Positions 8,302 through 16,335 of a stretch of DNA of 64,000 nucleotides are shown piece after piece. Position 1 is the stretch's first letter. Every line of letters starts with the position of its first letter. Source of the DNA: Streptomyces sp. NBC_00708. Lineage in GTDB: Bacteria > Actinomycetota > Actinomycetes > Streptomycetales > Streptomycetaceae. Where the stretch lies: NCBI GenBank assembly GCA_036226585.1, contig CP108997.1, positions 1,426,001 through 1,490,000 on the forward strand. Direction: 5' to 3'. The notes under the pieces are model-generated. The model made no database searches, had not been told where the DNA came from, and worked only from the letters and a program-made list of their open reading frames with translations. A program made the position numbers and the translations under genes.

Positions 8302-9015
8302 CTACACCCCCGCCGCGCCCAGCAGGTGCCCCGCCGCGTACGTCACCGCCATGGCCACCGCTCCCCCGCCCATGTTGCGCAGCACCGCCGGGCCGGCCGC
8401 CGCCTCGCCCAGGCGGGCGCTCCACCAGCCCGTCACGGCCAGCACCGCGAGGACACTGAGCACGGTCACCGGGACCCGGACGGTGGACGGGGGCAGCACG
8501 ATGGCCAGCAGAGGCAGCAGCGCGCCGGCGGTGAACGCGAGGAAGCTGGCGCCCGCCGCGTGCCAGGGGTTGGTGAGGTCGTCCGGGTCGATGCCCAGCT
8601 CGACCTCCGCGTGGGCACGCAGCGCGTCGCGTTCGGTGAGCTGGACGGCGGCCTCGCGGGCGACCTCACGGCTCAGGCCCTTGCCCTCCAACAGGCCGGT
8701 CAGCTCGACGAGTTCGGCCTCCGGGGTCTCCTGGAGCTCGCGCCTCTCGGTGGCCAGCGCGGCCTTCTCCGAGTCGCGCTGGGTGGAGACCGAGACGTAC
8801 TCGCCGGCCGCCATCGACAGCGACCCGGCGAGCAGCCCGGCCAGCCCGGCCGTCAGCAGGGCGCCCCGGTCACTCGTCGCCCCGGCGACCCCGACGACGA
8901 GCCCGGCGGTGGACACCACACCGTCATTCGCACCGAGCACGGCGGCCCGCAGCCAGTTGAGCCGGGCGCCCAGGCCGGAGCCGTGGGGTTCGTCGTGCTC
9001 GGACGGTCGCGTCAT
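8302..9015 (-). CDS. VIT1/CCC1 family transporter
   Basis: A 237-aa membrane protein of the VIT/CCC1 family, which moves Fe2+ or Mn2+ across membranes. The N-terminal signature NWLRAAVLGANDGVVST is followed by a helix pair with SLSMAAGEYVSVSTQRD, a cytosolic Glu-rich loop (metal-binding in plant VIT1) and three C-terminal helices. The ATG start at 9015 and length match the family. It follows the caspase-HSP90 operon in the same direction after 61 nt; whether it is cotranscribed is not shown. Confidence 0.93.
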   Translation of the reverse strand: MTRPSEHDEPHGSGLGARLNWLRAAVLGANDGVVSTAGLVVGVAGATSDRGALLTAGLAGLLAGSLSMAAGEYVSVSTQRDSEKAALATERRELQETPEAELVELTGLLEGKGLSREVAREAAVQLTERDALRAHAEVELGIDPDDLTNPWHAAGASFLAFTAGALLPLLAIVLPPSTVRVPVTVLSVLAVLAVTGWWSARLGEAAAGPAVLRNMGGGAVAMAVTYAAGHLLGAAGV

Positions 9016-9076
9016 CCCGGGATGGTCTCATCCCCAGCGGCCCGGCCCGCGTCCGACACCGCCGACGGGGCCGTCC

Positions 9077-9691
9077 TCAGCACCGTGCCGCCGGAGCCAG
9101 CGAGCGGACGTCACCGGCCGGGACACGGCGCAGTGCCTTCTGGCCGCGCACCTTGAGGGTGACCGCTTCCCGGTCGCTGAGGACCAGTTCACCGCAGGTG
9201 GTGCCGGTGGCCGTGGAGACGACGACGAGCGGTCCGGCCGGTGTGGGCTCCGCCGCCTTCTCCGCCGGGACGGTCCAGGTCACCGCGATGGCCGCGACGA
9301 CCGCGGACAGGCCGGCGACGGAGCAGCGGCGCGCCGAGGCCAGCACGTCCTGGATGCCTTCGACCTCGTCGAGGACGGCGGACAGCAGTTCGTCCCCGGT
9401 CAGCCAGGTGCCCTGACCGAGGCTCCCGTGCGCGGCACGCACCGCCAGCAGGGCGCCCCGCAGGAGCAGCAGGAAGGCCAGGACGAGCAGGCCGGCGGTG
9501 AGCCGGCGCCAGCCCGGGGTGAGGCCGGCAACACTCTCCGGCCCCTTGAGGACGAAGACGACTCCGACGAGCCCGGTCAGCGCGGTGAGGCCGTTGCGCC
9601 AGCCCTCGGCCTGCTTCCGTGCGGCGGTGAGCTGTTCGAGTTGCAGTTGCTGGCCGAGCTGGGCGAACCGCTTCCTGGTCAGGTCCGTCAC
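9077..9691 (-). CDS. Hypothetical three-helix membrane protein of the caspase-HSP90 operon
   Basis: A 204-aa protein I do not recognise. A Gln/Leu/Arg-rich amphipathic N-terminus (residues 1-35, coiled-coil-like, RFAQLGQQLQLEQL) is followed by three hydrophobic segments (about 40-57, 68-88 and 128-145). The C-terminal 55 residues are soluble and would face out or in depending on topology. GTG 9691 overlaps the stop of the upstream Cys-rich gene by 4 nt (GTGA), so it is the third translationally coupled gene of the operon. In conflict systems a small membrane partner often acts as an effector or anchor; that role is inference here. Confidence 0.75.
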   Translation of the reverse strand: MTDLTRKRFAQLGQQLQLEQLTAARKQAEGWRNGLTALTGLVGVVFVLKGPESVAGLTPGWRRLTAGLLVLAFLLLLRGALLAVRAAHGSLGQGTWLTGDELLSAVLDEVEGIQDVLASARRCSVAGLSAVVAAIAVTWTVPAEKAAEPTPAGPLVVVSTATGTTCGELVLSDREAVTLKVRGQKALRRVPAGDVRSLAPAARC

Positions 9692-10014
9692 GGCACCGGC
9701 ACATCCCAGAAGGCACCGCAGCCGGATTCCGGGAACTCGGCGGGCCGGTCGGGGTGCGGGTAGCCGCATTGGCAGTAGACCGCGATGTTCCCCGTCAGCT
9801 TCTCCGGGGTCCTGCGGCGGCCGAGCAGCCTGCCCTTGCCCTTGTACGGGCCGAGAACCCCGTACGACACCCGGAACACGCCGCTCGCGTGGCAGTGGGG
9901 ACAGTCGCTCGTCACGACGTACCAGCGGCCGTCGGCCGAGCGCGTGACGGTCGGGGTGCCGACAGGGGCGAGCTGCTGTTCGCGGAACGCTTTCAGATCA
10001 TGCGCGGGCGGCAT
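9688..10014 (-). CDS. Hypothetical zinc-ribbon-like protein of the caspase-HSP90 operon
   Basis: A 108-aa soluble protein with a CPHC motif near residue 38, a second Cys pair in YCQCGYPHPDRP near residue 80 and one more Cys (ESGCGAFW), the spacing of a zinc ribbon. The middle is basic (GPYKGKGRLLGRRR), compatible with nucleic acid or ribosome binding. Its ATG lies inside the 3' end of the caspase-HSP90 gene (17-nt overlap) and its stop overlaps the next start by 4 nt. Function unknown; a substrate or sensor partner of the large protein is possible. Confidence 0.75.
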   Translation of the reverse strand: MPPAHDLKAFREQQLAPVGTPTVTRSADGRWYVVTSDCPHCHASGVFRVSYGVLGPYKGKGRLLGRRRTPEKLTGNIAVYCQCGYPHPDRPAEFPESGCGAFWDVPVP

Positions 10015-13000
10015 CGGCCTTCCTCTCGTACGGCGCGTCGTCGTGGTACGAACGCGCGGGCGGGGTCGGTGCGGGGGCGTCGGGGTACGTCTCCGGGACG
10101 TCGAGGCCGAACACGCCCGCGTACAGCCGCAGCCGCTCCGCGACCCGGTCGGTGGTCCACTCCAGCTCCCGCGCGCCGACGGCGATCCGCTCGCCGGAGA
10201 CCGGGCCGGCGAGCGCGGGAGCCCGGCCGGTGTACTCGTCGGTGAGCAGGATCAGATCCTGCCACAGTGGAATGTCGGAGAACTCCGGCCGTTCGACGAG
10301 GAGTTCGACGCCGAAGGGCCGGTAGAGGGCGAGCCGGTCCCATGCCCGGTCCATCGGCCAGCCGAAGCGGGCGGCGACCCGCAGGAGGTCGAGCGGACCG
10401 ACGGGCCGGTCGCCCACAAGGTCGTCCTCGAACATCGCGGTGTCGTGTGGGGTGGGGCGCCACTGGGCCCATTCCGCGTCGGCCGTGTCGTCGCGGGGCT
10501 GCCAGGGGCTGCCGAGGGGGGCGAAGCGGCTGAGTTCCCTAACGCTGTCGCCGAGGGTGCCCTCCCTGTCGTAGGCGTGGCGCGACAGCCTTCGGGCATG
10601 GCCGTCCGTCAGCCATCGGAATCCTTCAGGGGCCCACTCGCAGCTCACAGCCACGTCCGTCGGGCTGACGTATTCACCGGTCAGGCACTCGGGCGGGGGC
10701 TCCAGCAGGAACTCGGCGTCCAGCAGCACGGCGAGTTCGGTCAGCTTCGCGTACACCACGCCGAGAGGAAGGCCCCGTGCGGACGCCGCCACGACGGCGT
10801 AGGCGGAGTCCAGGCGCGTCGGGCCGCCGGGCGTCGTCACCCAGTCGAGCCCCCAGGTCCATGGCATGAGAAGAGACATGTCCTCCTGAGGAACGGCAAG
10901 CCAGCGGTCGACGAGTCCGGGGGCCCGGGAGTCCAGGAGCCCGGATTCGGCCAGGCTGGTCAGCGCAGCGACGATGTCGGTGGTGTCGGCCTGAGACGTC
11001 CGGACCGCGACGGCCACCTCGGCGAGCGGCGCGAGGTACGGAGTGTCCCGTGGATGAACCTCGTAGGGCTCATAGCGTTTCTGTGGCACGGCCGGGTCCC
11101 TCACCAGCACGGCTTCCAGCTTGGTGAAGGCGCGGTCCCGCAGACTGTCCAGGTCGGGAAGGGCCAGGTCCATTGAGCCGAACCAGGGAGCGAAGCGTTC
11201 GTACGTCCCGCTCAGCGTCAACGACGTGCGGGCGGCCGCTCCGACCCAGCTGCGCAAGGCGGGACCATGCGTTCCACGCCAGAGGGCGCGCCCAAAAACA
11301 GCTTCAAGATCGGTGTACGTCGCACGGTTGGCCCGGACCCGCAAGGTTGCCGCCATGTCGCGGTCCTTCGACAGCCCGAGCCATTCATACCGGGCGACGA
11401 CGTCCTCGAACTCCTGCTGGGACGGCAGGTCGTCCGTCTCTGCTTGTTCTCTCTCCTTGGCGAAGTCGGGGTGCAGCCGCAGTACGCGCAGCTCCCGCTG
11501 CGTCGCCGGCCGGTCCGCGGGCACCCGGTCGTAGTCGGTGTCCAGTGGTACCAGAGGGAAACCGGCCTCGGTGAATCGCCCCGCCCTTGCCACGGCCTCC
11601 CGCAGGTGGAGTCCCGCCTCGACCGAAAAGTGTTGCAGCAGCGTCACCACCTGGGAGAGCCACGAACTCTGCTCGTTCGCGTCCGTCTCCTCCGTCCATG
11701 TGTGGATCAACGAGTCGGAGAAAGGCTCGTGGTCGGTCAAAAGCGCGCCGTCGACGGAATCGAGCGCGATCGCGTGCGCCACTTCGAGATCGGCGACGGC
11801 GGGGACACGGACTCCGCAGATGGCGTATCTACGGAGCCCTCGGAGCAGCCCGGCGAACGTGGCCGGCGCTTCTCCCGCCTGCGGCACCACGGACTCGGCC
11901 AGGCTGCCCCCTCGCCCGTACTCCTCCGCGACGATCCGGCTCTCCCGTGGTAGAGGCCGCGGGTAGCCGGCCAACGACTCCGGAGCCGGCACGTCCATCC
12001 ACTTGGCCTCCAAGGGAATACGAGCCGCTCGCAGGGCGGCCACGCGCCACGCCACCACGCCGGGCTCCACGCCCTGAAGGTTTCCGTGCAGGAAGACGAG
12101 GGAGTTCCGGCCGTCGTGGAGCACGAAGTCCATCGGCAGGCATCCGAGGTCTCTGAGAGAGATTCCGGCCGAGCTGTACCAGCTCGTTGCGCTGGCCACC
12201 GGCCGGCCCTCCGCGAGGAGCCTGGCCACCAGCGGTTGCGCGCCGCCGCAGTGGCTGTGCGCGAAACTCCAGAGCCACTCGACTGTGAACCATTCCGGAA
12301 GGACCATGTTCGCGGTCAGACGGCGCACATGGTCCGCAACCCATTGCTCGTCATACGTGAGGATCCTCGTTCTGCTGGTGTTCAGCTCCGGAGAGTGCGT
12401 CTCTCTGAGATCGACCACACACCCGAACATGATTCCGTCGAGCGGATTTCCCCCCATGTGGAACGAGCCTCCTGAAGCCACCTCCTGTTCGCTCACCGGT
12501 GTCCAGATCCCGTCCACGAGGAGGCAGCCCCGCCCCGGAACCCACCACACGTCATGGTCCGCCCGCACCGGGCTCACGCGGTCGCCGTCGTAATAGAGGA
12601 CGTCCGGCTCCCACTCCTTCACCACCGCGTCGCCCTTCTCGACGCGCATCGCGAAATCGCACCGCCACACATACTTGGCCAGCTCGTCGGCGGCCTCGAT
12701 CGCGTCGCCGTTCAGATAGAGACGTACCCGCGTGCCGCCGCCCGGCTGGGAGGCGTCGCTCTCCCTGATACGGAAGAGGCTTCCGCTCGACGCGATGTCC
12801 ACCCGTAGCCCGCGGCCGGACTCGGGGCGGCCGAACTCGTCCGTGGCCCGGGTCCAGATGCTGATCTCGTCGGCCAGCATGAAGTAGCTGAACACCCCGA
12901 TGCCGAAGCGGCTGTTCGCGAAGATCCGGAGGTCCTCGTCGACGGCCCGCCACCGTGCCTGCTCCCTGCGGTACTCCCGGGACTGCTCGAAGCGGCGCCC

Positions 13001-15184
13001 GGCCCTCGAGAACGTGCTGCGCAGTGCGGTCTGACTCATCCCGACGCCGTTGTCCTCGCACTCGACATAGGCGCGGCCGTCCTCGTCCACTCCCTGCCGG
13101 AAGACGATCGCGCCGTCCCACTGCTGGCGCATGCCCTCCTTCAGCTCGCCGTAGCGGACCCGGGCGCCGCGGTAGCGGCAGGCGTCCAGGGCGTTCTGGT
13201 ACAGCTCGCGCAGGGCCAGCGTGCGTTCCCCGTAGAGCTGGGAGCCCATGAGGAGTTCGCGCATCTCGTCCTCGGCGAGGCTGAACCGCATCAGCGGAAG
13301 TCCGTACGCCTCGCCGCGCCCGTCCGCGTTGTACCGGGGGCGCAGCTTGCGGCAGGTGACGCGTTCGGGGAGGTGGGCGAGGGGGCCGGCAGGCTCGGCC
13401 GGGGCGAGGTGCTGCTTGATGTGCTGAACGGCGTCGTCCGCCCACTCGGTCAGCTTTTCGAGGGCGGCGTGGACCGCCGGGTGCGGGCAGGGCAGGTCGA
13501 GGTCGATGCAGGTGCCGAGCCGGTCCCTGGACCAGCGCAGCTCCTGGACGCCGGTGACGGCCTGGGCGGGGACGAGCCCGTCGGTGACGCCGATGTTGTC
13601 CACCAGGACGCCCGGCATGTCCCTCAGGTCCCCGCCGAGCAGCCCCGCGAGCCCGAGGAGCCAGGACAGCTCCCTGGCCCGCCACCGCTCGACCGGTCCG
13701 GTGCGCGGGGCAATGTCCGAGAGGCGCTGCGATTCGTCGGCGGCCTCGCGCTCGCCCCCGTACGGCTGAGTGGGCGGGACGGCGGTCTGGCGGCACACCC
13801 GGACCAGGCCGTCCAAGACCTCGGCAAGCCGGGCGGACTCCTCGTTTCCCAGCATCGCGGCGGCCAGCGGGCGCAGCAGGTTCGGCGCGTAGATGTCCCA
13901 GAGGTCCTCTCGCCCCAGGACGTGGCGGTGCATCAGCCAGGCGGCGACGGCACCGGCCTCCTCGGTGGCGCCGCGGCCGGCGAGTTCGCGCCCCTTGCGC
14001 CAGATGAGCGGGTGGGCGGCGTACGTGTGCTCCAGGTCGATGCGGGCCGCGTCGGCGCCGAGTTCCCCCGTGGCCGGGTCGAGCCGCAGGGGCTGAGCGG
14101 CGGCCGCCTCCTTGACGCCCATCGCGTAGACGGCCTCGCGGACGAAAGGGGCGGCCATGAGGGCCGCGAACTCGCAGGGGTCCAGGAGCGGGCCGCCCTG
14201 GGTGACGGAGGGGGCGAGGAGCGCGCGCAGTCCGGTCGTCAGCACACGTACGGGATAGCCGTCGTCGGCCCACGGGTCGCTGACCTCGCCCAGGGCGGAG
14301 GCACGCAGCCTGGCGCACTCCAGGACCAGCCGTTCCAGGGCATTCTGGAGATCGCGCCTGCGCTCGTCGTCGCACTGGACGGCGGCCCACAGCTCGGGGT
14401 CGCCGATGGCCACGGACCACTCCTCCTGGAGGGTCCGCCCGGCGCAGAGTTCGACCCCGTTGATGGCGCCGGGCCCGCTGGGCGCGTACTGCGGGGCGGG
14501 GCGCTGTGCGTGCTGCGCGGCGCGGGCGAACTCCGTGGTCCTGCGGACGGTGTGGGCGATGACGTCGCCCACGGTGCGCGGGGAACTGTCGGAGGCGAGT
14601 GCCTCGGACAGCGCCCGGGTGAAGTGGCTGCCCTCCTGGTCGTCGGATCCGCAGGTCTGGCCGGCCGCGCAGCCGAAGAGGACGGCGACCCGGTCGCGCC
14701 AGGAGGGGAAGTTGGTCGCGGGGCCGCCGAAGGACACGTCAGCGTCGGGGTGGGCGTCGCGGCAGGCGTCGACGGTGAGCAGAACGGTGTCGGCCCGGCA
14801 GCCCTTGAGCAGGGTCGTCAGGTCGAGTCCGATCAGTCCGGCGGTGTCGACGTGCGGCGGGTCGGTCGACCAGTTGAGCTGGGCCTCGGAGGGGACGAGG
14901 TAGTCGGAGCCGTCCGCGGAGAGCCCGTGTCCGGTGAAGTGGATGAGGACGGTGCCGCCCTCGGGGGCGGTGCAGCAGACCCGGCTGATCGCGCTGATGA
15001 TCCGGGACCGCAGCGCCGGGCGGTCGGCGGTGAGCCCCAGCGTCTCCACGGTGTACCCCGAGGACCGCAGCGCGGTGTCCATCAACTCCGCGTCCTTGAC
15101 CACCGCTTGGGTCAGATCCGGGAAGTGGTCGCTCAGTTCGTACTGCGGCACCGCGATGATCAGTGCCCGCCTGCTCTCCCCCAC
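9998..15184 (-). CDS. Caspase-like (C14) and HSP90-like GHKL ATPase fusion protein
   Basis: A 1,728-aa multidomain protein. Residues about 4-250 are a caspase/metacaspase-like peptidase with the catalytic His86 (HFTGHGLS) and Cys141 (VDACRD). A helical region follows, then an HSP90-type GHKL ATPase at about 640-830: N-box with Asn664 (ELYQNALDA), G1 box starting at Asp711 (DNGVGM) and G2 box SRFGIGVFSYF near residue 760. The remaining 850 residues are alpha-helical and poorly recognisable; one stretch (DLLRVAARFGWPMDRAWDRL) resembles winged-helix modules described with HSP90-like NTPases of bacterial conflict systems. GTG 15184 is preferred: a GGGGGAGG site lies 11 nt upstream, and the more distal ATG would overlap the divergent exonuclease start. 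It is the first gene of a three-gene overlapping operon. Expected role: an ATP-gated protease switch, cutting partner or host proteins. Confidence 0.88.
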   Translation of the reverse strand: MGESRRALIIAVPQYELSDHFPDLTQAVVKDAELMDTALRSSGYTVETLGLTADRPALRSRIISAISRVCCTAPEGGTVLIHFTGHGLSADGSDYLVPSEAQLNWSTDPPHVDTAGLIGLDLTTLLKGCRADTVLLTVDACRDAHPDADVSFGGPATNFPSWRDRVAVLFGCAAGQTCGSDDQEGSHFTRALSEALASDSSPRTVGDVIAHTVRRTTEFARAAQHAQRPAPQYAPSGPGAINGVELCAGRTLQEEWSVAIGDPELWAAVQCDDERRRDLQNALERLVLECARLRASALGEVSDPWADDGYPVRVLTTGLRALLAPSVTQGGPLLDPCEFAALMAAPFVREAVYAMGVKEAAAAQPLRLDPATGELGADAARIDLEHTYAAHPLIWRKGRELAGRGATEEAGAVAAWLMHRHVLGREDLWDIYAPNLLRPLAAAMLGNEESARLAEVLDGLVRVCRQTAVPPTQPYGGEREAADESQRLSDIAPRTGPVERWRARELSWLLGLAGLLGGDLRDMPGVLVDNIGVTDGLVPAQAVTGVQELRWSRDRLGTCIDLDLPCPHPAVHAALEKLTEWADDAVQHIKQHLAPAEPAGPLAHLPERVTCRKLRPRYNADGRGEAYGLPLMRFSLAEDEMRELLMGSQLYGERTLALRELYQNALDACRYRGARVRYGELKEGMRQQWDGAIVFRQGVDEDGRAYVECEDNGVGMSQTALRSTFSRAGRRFEQSREYRREQARWRAVDEDLRIFANSRFGIGVFSYFMLADEISIWTRATDEFGRPESGRGLRVDIASSGSLFRIRESDASQPGGGTRVRLYLNGDAIEAADELAKYVWRCDFAMRVEKGDAVVKEWEPDVLYYDGDRVSPVRADHDVWWVPGRGCLLVDGIWTPVSEQEVASGGSFHMGGNPLDGIMFGCVVDLRETHSPELNTSRTRILTYDEQWVADHVRRLTANMVLPEWFTVEWLWSFAHSHCGGAQPLVARLLAEGRPVASATSWYSSAGISLRDLGCLPMDFVLHDGRNSLVFLHGNLQGVEPGVVAWRVAALRAARIPLEAKWMDVPAPESLAGYPRPLPRESRIVAEEYGRGGSLAESVVPQAGEAPATFAGLLRGLRRYAICGVRVPAVADLEVAHAIALDSVDGALLTDHEPFSDSLIHTWTEETDANEQSSWLSQVVTLLQHFSVEAGLHLREAVARAGRFTEAGFPLVPLDTDYDRVPADRPATQRELRVLRLHPDFAKEREQAETDDLPSQQEFEDVVARYEWLGLSKDRDMAATLRVRANRATYTDLEAVFGRALWRGTHGPALRSWVGAAARTSLTLSGTYERFAPWFGSMDLALPDLDSLRDRAFTKLEAVLVRDPAVPQKRYEPYEVHPRDTPYLAPLAEVAVAVRTSQADTTDIVAALTSLAESGLLDSRAPGLVDRWLAVPQEDMSLLMPWTWGLDWVTTPGGPTRLDSAYAVVAASARGLPLGVVYAKLTELAVLLDAEFLLEPPPECLTGEYVSPTDVAVSCEWAPEGFRWLTDGHARRLSRHAYDREGTLGDSVRELSRFAPLGSPWQPRDDTADAEWAQWRPTPHDTAMFEDDLVGDRPVGPLDLLRVAARFGWPMDRAWDRLALYRPFGVELLVERPEFSDIPLWQDLILLTDEYTGRAPALAGPVSGERIAVGARELEWTTDRVAERLRLYAGVFGLDVPETYPDAPAPTPPARSYHDDAPYERKADAARA

Positions 15185-15336
15185 GACCTGTGCCGCCTCC
15201 CCCTCGTACCTGTCCGGTAGCGGATCAGCCTGCCACAGGCGGAGCCCGGGACGGACGGGTTCGGCGACCTCTGCGCATACACCCCCGCCGCCACCGAATA
15301 GGGGACTGTCCGACACGGCCCGTATTCTCTGTGACC

Positions 15337-16335
15337 ATGCTCGACGACCCGCAGACCGCAGCACCGTGGCCGGCCGCCTACCCGCAGGGGTACGCGGTCG
15401 TCGACGTGGAGACCACCGGGCTCGCCCGGGACGACCGGATAGTGTCCGCGGCCGTCTACCGGCTGGACGCGCGGGGCAACGTCGAGGACCACTGGTACAC
15501 GCTGGTCAACCCGGAGCGCGATCCGGGGCCGGTCTGGATCCATGGGCTGACCAGTGACGTGCTGGAGGGGGCGCCGCTCTTTCCCGAGGTCGCGGCCGAA
15601 CTGTCCGAACGGCTCGCGGACCGGGTGCTCGTGGCGCACAACGCCGCGTTCGACTGGTCGATGCTGGCCCGGGAGTACGCGCGCGCCTCGGTGACCGCGC
15701 CGGTGCGGCAGCGGCTGTGCACCATCGCGCTCGCCAAGGAGCTGCGGCTGCCGCTGGCCAACCACAAGCTGGCGTCGCTCGCCGAGCACTTCGGCGTGGT
15801 CCAGCAGCGCGCGCACCACGCGCTGGACGACGCCCGGGTGCTGGCCGAGGCGTTCCGCCCGAGCCTGCACGCGGCGGCGCGGGACGGGGTGCGGCTGCCG
15901 CTCCTGGAGTGCCGGCCGCTGACCGAGTGGTCGCACTCGCCGGTGACCCCGCGGACCGGCTCCTCCTCGTACGGGGGACAGGGCACCTGGCGCGCCTCGC
16001 GGAAGCGTCCGGCCTGCCCGTATCCGAACCCGGGGCGGTACGACAAGGACAAACCACTCATGCAGGGCATGCGGGTGGCGTTCTCCGGGGACACCTCCAT
16101 CGACCGCGAACTGCTGGAGGACCGGGCGGTGGAGGCGGGGCTGCACGTGGCGACCAGCGTCTCCCGGCTGACCAGCCTGCTCGTCACCAACGACCCGGAC
16201 TCGGCGACGTCGAAGACGGTGAAGGCCAAGTCCTTCGGCACGCCGGTCCTGGACGAGAGCGCCTTCACACACCTTCTGCGGGACGTCGCCCCCGCTGTCG
16301 CGAAGGTGCCGGCACCGACGCCGTCATCGGAGTGA
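15337..16335 (+). CDS. DEDDh 3'-5' exonuclease with C-terminal BRCT domain
   Basis: A 332-aa DnaQ-like protein. The exonuclease fold (about 15-180) has Asp23 and Glu25 (VVDVETTGL), a second Asp in AHNAAFD and the terminal His/Asp pair in HHALDDAR. A charged linker leads to a BRCT domain (about 241-320, RVAFSGDTSIDRELL). The layout matches actinobacterial epsilon-like exonucleases that bind DNA-repair partners through BRCT. There is no Shine-Dalgarno before ATG 15337; TATTCT at 15323-15328 would place transcription at the start codon, so it may be leaderless. GTG 15331 is an alternative start. It is divergent from the caspase-HSP90 operon across 152 nt. Confidence 0.9.
   Translation: MLDDPQTAAPWPAAYPQGYAVVDVETTGLARDDRIVSAAVYRLDARGNVEDHWYTLVNPERDPGPVWIHGLTSDVLEGAPLFPEVAAELSERLADRVLVAHNAAFDWSMLAREYARASVTAPVRQRLCTIALAKELRLPLANHKLASLAEHFGVVQQRAHHALDDARVLAEAFRPSLHAAARDGVRLPLLECRPLTEWSHSPVTPRTGSSSYGGQGTWRASRKRPACPYPNPGRYDKDKPLMQGMRVAFSGDTSIDRELLEDRAVEAGLHVATSVSRLTSLLVTNDPDSATSKTVKAKSFGTPVLDESAFTHLLRDVAPAVAKVPAPTPSSE

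Follow-up and report, generated by a model that had tools for sequence, protein, structure and literature searches.

The closest described system to the locus analyzed here is EACC1-caspase (System 4 of Kaur et al. 2020; PMC7159879), a two-gene actinobacterial operon whose one-helix membrane protein, EACC1, is proposed as a sensor that activates the caspase. A related idea is found in bacterial gasdermin operons (treated in PMC9079055), in which a caspase-like protease is accompanied by a small membrane-acting partner. Here we describe a three-gene operon in a stretch of 64,000 nucleotides of Streptomyces sp. NBC_00708 (GCA_036226585.1, contig CP108997.1, positions 1,426,001 to 1,490,000; hereafter the window), which is composed of a large gene encoding a caspase and an HSP90-like ATPase (gene 1) and of a pair of small genes encoding a putative zinc-ribbon-like protein (Zn) and a predicted membrane protein (TM):

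9998..15184, minus strand: gene 1, caspase-iHD-CE-HSP90-like ATPase-wHTH protein, 1728 aa; iHD-CE scores over the family cut-off
9688..10014, minus strand: gene 2 (Zn), zinc-ribbon-like protein (predicted), 108 aa
9077..9691, minus strand: gene 3 (TM), predicted membrane protein, 204 aa
9998..10014, minus strand: overlap of genes 1 and 2, 17 nt (coordinates of the open reading frames [ORFs])
9688..9691, minus strand: overlap of genes 2 and 3, 4 nt (ORF coordinates)

Like EACC1-caspase (PMC7159879), this actinobacterial operon combines a membrane protein with a protein in which the caspase is N-terminal and the C-terminal part fused to it is variable. The differences are that the caspase gene of the window is not preceded by an EACC1 gene, its 5' neighbor being a divergent exonuclease gene at 15337, 152 nt off, and that the membrane component is a different protein, the predicted TM, which belongs to another family, is located 3' and comes with a zinc-ribbon-like partner. 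The NCBIfam model for EACC1-caspase (NF047832) scores gene 1 at 40.8, against a cut-off of 140. Gene 1 is covered instead by a Pfam set (PF24401, PF24391, PF24410, and PF24393), from which it has iHD-CE, HD-CE, and wHTH-HSP90_Na-assoc around the ATPase. Proteins of a second branch share the caspase core of the window type and are accompanied by Pepco; a model built from Pepco genes found no match beside gene 1 of the window. Because neither EACC1 nor Pepco is present and the membrane protein is another one, accompanied by a zinc-ribbon-like protein, the window locus may be regarded as working like the EACC1 kind without being a member of it. As to gasdermins, TM would differ from them in being a predicted multi-helix membrane protein, and neither Zn nor TM matched any Pfam family beyond chance, no gasdermin-specific model having been applied. 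The three-part set, which the initial annotation of this DNA could not name, is not named in the open-licence literature that we searched, nor did we find there a paper naming iHD-CE, Pepco in the present sense, or the Zn-TM pair. The large protein is known, and the new part is the pair, which is common to two families of caspase-fold proteases.

The three genes belong together as an operon, and their linkage is kept in other genomes. A search of 392 Streptomyces genomes with a C-terminal fragment of gene 1 gave matches in 35, of which 34 show a TM match on the same strand 224–464 bp further on; the exception, G308, has a marginal gene 1 match (E-value 9.8e-4). Similarly, 13 of 15 Zn homologs (that of the window included) are on contigs equal in size to that of a gene 1 homolog, and the remaining two are on contigs of at most 2,053 bases. 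The initial annotation, drawn from the bare sequence, had proposed three overlapping ORFs forming an operon and had made linkage of the small genes to the large one elsewhere a touchstone of the proposal. The ORFs are real and lie where it had placed them, both overlaps are present, and, among the 27 loci (window included) in which the gene caller placed Zn adjoining gene 1, the gene 1/Zn overlap recurs in 18 and the Zn/TM overlap, of exactly 4 nt, in 21.

The part of gene 1 with which the pair is associated emerges from 47 iHD-CE places in 199 genomes, picked regardless of the pair. Among 30 caspase-bearing iHD-CE genes, 19 have Zn/TM, 10 have Pepco, and one has neither; no gene in this set has both Pepco and Zn/TM. 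Two Pepco loci, L177 and L185, are cut off on their downstream side by the contig end, so that, although counted in the 30, they were excluded from the 28 assessable genes. The pair adjoins 19 of these 28 caspase-bearing genes versus none of 13 caspase-lacking iHD-CE-HSP90 genes (Fisher P = 3e-5, relatedness ignored). The absence of the caspase was established with Pfam in three of the 13 and with our own caspase model in the remaining ones. No six-frame match to TM was found in the 13 caspase-lacking loci. A weak Zn match in L178 (E-value 1.4e-4), located on the opposite strand inside the caspase-lacking gene itself, was taken as chance. The counts of 30 and 13 leave out L195, whose gene is broken, L200 and L201, which are pieces at contig ends, and L170, which runs off its contig. 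L192 was scored as Zn/TM-positive, both genes being located beyond its transposase genes, and L196 and L167, which the gene caller had missed, were located with a six-frame search. TM matches not taken in are G148, G253, G351, G252, G291, G299:C77, G350:497362, and G375; Zn matches not taken in are G027, G343, and G361.

In a 58-row tree built on the iHD-CE-HSP90 core, which is unrooted and for which the program warns of long branches, 33 pair-bearing caspase proteins fall on the same side of a branch whose support is 100. Three more rows are found on that side: L133 (a tandem copy sharing the pair of its neighbor), L192 (broken by transposase genes), and L200 (a contig-end piece). The opposite side holds 14 caspase-lacking proteins, seven Pepco-type ones, and L199. 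The window type thus differs from the Pepco branch by its Zn-TM pair and by its position across this branch. At L133:7394-18416, a single Zn-TM pair is flanked by two tandem caspase-HSP90 genes. At L173:5479-7395, a separate protein of 638 aa with an HSP90-like ATPase match directly precedes a caspase-lacking iHD-CE-HSP90-wHTH gene.

The pair is also found away from HSP90 genes, beside CHAT proteases (PF12770). CHAT and C14 proteases have the caspase fold in common and differ in their regulatory parts. In 25 of 39 non-HSP90 loci (40 minus L147, which is a caspase-HSP90 locus), a CHAT gene is present within two genes of the pair, always on its 5' side, with 17 divergent and eight co-directional arrangements. 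The conserved His and Cys are kept in all 25 pair-linked CHAT loci, six of which were confirmed directly by Pfam. PF12770 matches were found at the pair locus in 20 of 20 genomes searched (21 loci), these genomes having been selected for such a locus; as they contain 79 CHAT matches in all, approximately 0.1 such neighbor is expected by chance. Unlike gene 1, the CHAT partners have no iHD-CE-HSP90-wHTH part and are mostly divergent from the pair; in their N-terminal parts, TPR exceeds the Pfam cut-off in one of six examined, the others being weakly TPR-like or unassigned. The common factor of HSP90-linked and CHAT-linked pairs is the protease. Together with the contrast between 19 of 28 and none of 13 genes, the CHAT neighbors show that what Zn-TM goes with is a caspase-fold protease, whether C14 or CHAT, and not the HSP90 module: the pair tracks the protease rather than the ATPase.

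Gene 1 itself has four recognizable parts:

14492..15172, minus strand: Peptidase_C14 (caspase), residues 5–231, with H86, D139, and C141 (Pfam, 53.9 bits, cut-off 21.4)
13337..14419, minus strand: iHD-CE, residues 256–616 (PF24401, 237 bits, cut-off 27)
12695..13267, minus strand: HSP90-like GHKL ATPase, approximately residues 640–830, with E660, N664, D667, D711, G713, and G715 (2ior_A match)
10121..10270, minus strand: wHTH-HSP90_Na-assoc, residues 1639–1688 (PF24410, 46.6 bits, cut-off 23)

The ATPase region matches the N-domain of HtpG (2ior_A, E-value 6.4e-9), and Pfam HATPase_c stays under its cut-off (16.6 vs. 26.4 bits). An identification of gene 1 as the HtpG chaperone was rejected, since the match is limited to the N-terminal ATPase part; the full-length equivalog model gives 42.3 bits where its cut-off asks for 371. 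Our search retrieved 209 gene 1 homologs among 7,992 scored, and 119 of the 120 listed have C14, HD-CE, iHD-CE, and wHTH, the remaining one being a 1160-aa piece. The caspase-iHD-CE-HSP90-wHTH protein is therefore an architecture already curated in Pfam and not peculiar to the window. We aligned 58 loci proteins and 119 homologs, two sets that partly overlap, after excluding gene 1 pieces below 1100 aa, the near-duplicate L032, and homolog P0031 (1160 aa). None of the 43 caspase-bearing loci proteins or of the 119 homologs lacks H86, D139, or C141; E660, N664, D667, D711, G713, G715, and M716 are kept in 58 of 58 and 119 of 119, respectively. The residues of the caspase dyad and of the ATPase site of gene 1 are intact. 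The alignment agrees with the initial annotation on the numbering of H86, C141, N664, and D711, and the catalytic residues are invariant among homologs, a condition on which that annotation had staked its proposal. Its estimate of about 850 unassigned residues has to be reduced, because residues 256–616 belong to iHD-CE and 1639–1688 to wHTH-HSP90_Na-assoc.

To our knowledge, the substrates of most bacterial caspase-fold proteases have not been established. The pair accompanies two regulatory architectures and, in the sampled genomes, occurs only where a caspase-fold protease is or once was, which makes it a candidate substrate or partner of such proteases. Our preferred reading, to which we give slightly less than an even chance, is that the operon is a protease switch: the ATPase/wHTH part would detect a trigger and then license the caspase, whose action on Zn-TM at the membrane would lead to cell harm or arrest. 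Its steps are given here in order of decreasing support. First, the protease and the pair would act together, since linkage follows the protease. Second, gene 1 would be the switch, an ATP-driven clamp closure of the HSP90 type holding or releasing the caspase, which would stay restrained until the clamp closes, with the helical/wHTH C-terminus as a possible sensor. Third, the pair would be what the caspase acts on at the membrane, with the Zn protein linking protease and membrane protein; because the same pair also adjoins a second caspase-fold family, it is likely to be the dedicated membrane-side target of these proteases. Fourth, membrane damage or arrest would occur during phage attack or stress, cleavage turning the pair into a membrane-disturbing effector. 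Such cleavage might take place after Arg or Lys, since D139-x-C141 resembles the metacaspase type. If true, the switch would connect a clamp of the HSP90 ATPase type with events at the bacterial membrane that are under protease control. An extension that we consider doubtful is that Zn-TM is a portable, protease-gated membrane executioner, a counterpart of gasdermin of unrelated origin, in which Zn would dock CHAT or a C14 protease driven by an HSP90-type ATP clamp, and cleavage would open or collapse the three-helix TM.

Several observations weigh against the switch reading. All linkage counts come from one genus, Streptomyces. In 14 of the 39 non-HSP90 loci, there is no CHAT gene within reach (L149, L150, L151, L152, L156, L161, L162, L165, L213, L217, L219, L214, L222, and L225; in the last three, the gene caller placed no Zn/TM gene). 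The protease is divergent from the pair in 17 of the 25 CHAT loci, which is less expected for a stoichiometric set of protease and substrate. On the TM tree, C14- and CHAT-linked TM proteins are separated by a single label change, so their sharing of the pair may be one old event and not repeated recruitment. In PADLOC, the CHAT partners tested gave no match and gene 1 only that of a generic caspase model; Zn and TM likewise had no match. Finally, the same facts fit a pair located upstream of the protease as a membrane sensor or anchor, which is a serious rival: the pair would detect disturbance of the envelope and activate the caspase, which would then cut other cell proteins. Such a role is that proposed (PMC7159879) for the membrane protein of EACC1-caspase, the closest described system.

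From its AlphaFold model (mean pLDDT 82, pTM 0.53), TM is predicted to be a membrane protein with three long helices and a small C-terminal barrel of five strands, whose topology is Sm/SH3-like by fold comparison; because a simple hydropathy scan often gives two spans and not three, the number of spans is itself a prediction. An alignment of 46 sequences shows five invariant residues, A28, R32, G50, A86, and W139. C166 and C204 are both kept in 43 of the 46 and both absent in the other three, which have no barrel. Short TM proteins of approximately 150 aa are found, still in the operon, in L188, L189, L190, L193, L194, and L205, and the aligned ones (L188, L190, and L193) have lost the barrel and the Cys pair. 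The barrel with its conserved Cys pair would be a plausible outside sensor, yet it is missing from TM proteins that remain in the operon, and all five invariant residues are in the helical part. We consider the sensor explanation, serious as it is, to be on the unlikely side. TM had no Pfam family beyond chance, and no Pfam domain was found among the 120 listed of its 284 homologs.

The Zn protein, for which no Pfam family beyond chance was found either, is Cys/His-rich and is predicted to be zinc-ribbon-like and to bind zinc. Nine residues are invariant in a 43-sequence alignment: C38, P39, C41, C81, C83, H87, G98, C99, and G100. These form the motifs C38-P-x-C41, C81-x-C83, H87, and G98-C99-G100. 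Its AlphaFold model has five strands (mean pLDDT 83.5).

Some pairs exist without any protease. L149, L152, and L161 fall inside the caspase-linked TM clade, and two of them, L149 and L152 (Zn/TM relics only), are near the same genes as L192. We take these genes to be glutamate-synthase-like; Pfam identified in them only an oxidoreductase with a 4Fe-4S domain. At L192:4721-11944, transposase genes interrupt the caspase-HSP90 gene, and a wHTH remnant and Zn/TM are found on their far side. The orphan pairs of L150, L151, L156, and L162 form their own group on the TM tree. In L150, L151, and L162, the pair adjoins an elongation-factor-G-like GTPase gene (Pfam-checked in L150), and no protease was found nearby; L156 has part of this site in common with them. 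The persistence of protease-less pairs suggests that the pair alone is not evidently harmful. It would also suit an inhibitor or immunity module that silences the protease until displaced, as would the position of the small genes, which overlap translationally and lie 3' of an enzyme that may be toxic. However, Pepco, the alternative partner, is located upstream and shows no membrane span in our scan, and a membrane antitoxin would be unusual for a protease without predicted spans. We judge the inhibitor explanation very improbable.

A further alternative takes gene 1 for a regulatory protease that serves the physiology or development of Streptomyces instead of defence, and the membrane pair for its regulated partner. 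This would agree with the mostly metabolic families of the neighboring genes and with the absence of TM matches (E-value threshold 1e-3) from 72,556 plasmid and 50,697 phage records. The distribution of the operon argues the other way: TM matches are patchy (69 of 392 Streptomyces genomes), and the chromosomal interval of the window-type operon is empty or otherwise occupied in relatives. The disruption of L192 by transposase genes and the decayed relics also fit an accessory conflict-type system better than housekeeping, and we regard a non-defence role as improbable. The interval is bordered by two genes, identified by Pfam and by their position in relatives:

15337..16335, plus strand: flanking exonuclease (RNase_T + BRCT) gene, one border of the interval
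8302..9015, minus strand: flanking VIT1-family gene, the opposite border

The window-type operon has one chromosomal home. Among ten close relatives (L032–L035 and L127–L132), the exonuclease gene is present 5' of the operon in nine, L127 being too short on that side. On the 3' side, the ten have genes of the VIT1, fatty-acid-hydroxylase, YhhN, or alcohol-dehydrogenase side, L129 with a remnant only. Additional genes are located between the operon and the borders in L034, L127, and L128. Of 18 relatives of the same genus that were examined, none of which has the operon at this site, 17 show the interval either empty (11, two of them with a short ORF of 60 or 92 aa) or occupied by other genes, such as those for an amidohydrolase and a short-chain dehydrogenase (six). 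The operon is thus an accessory chromosomal cassette. The variable site corresponds to the window interval 9016–15336, the loci compared being L271, L272, L273, L278, L280, and L286.

A GAGGGGGAGG stretch lies 11 nt upstream of the GTG at 15184, at which gene 1 starts. Alternative in-frame starts are a GTG at 15364 for gene 1, giving 1788 aa, and an ATG at 9769 for TM, giving 230 aa. The nearest named record is Streptomyces sp. col6 (97% identical). The exonuclease-BRCT neighbor (15337–16335) matches the PADLOC candidate defence model PDC-S48 (E-value 9e-75); despite this match it has the look of a core gene, all 31 of 31 relatives possessing it. The genome of the window contains a second, diverged and complete caspase-HSP90 + Zn + TM operon (L145:5791-11899), located at about 2.98 Mb of C1.

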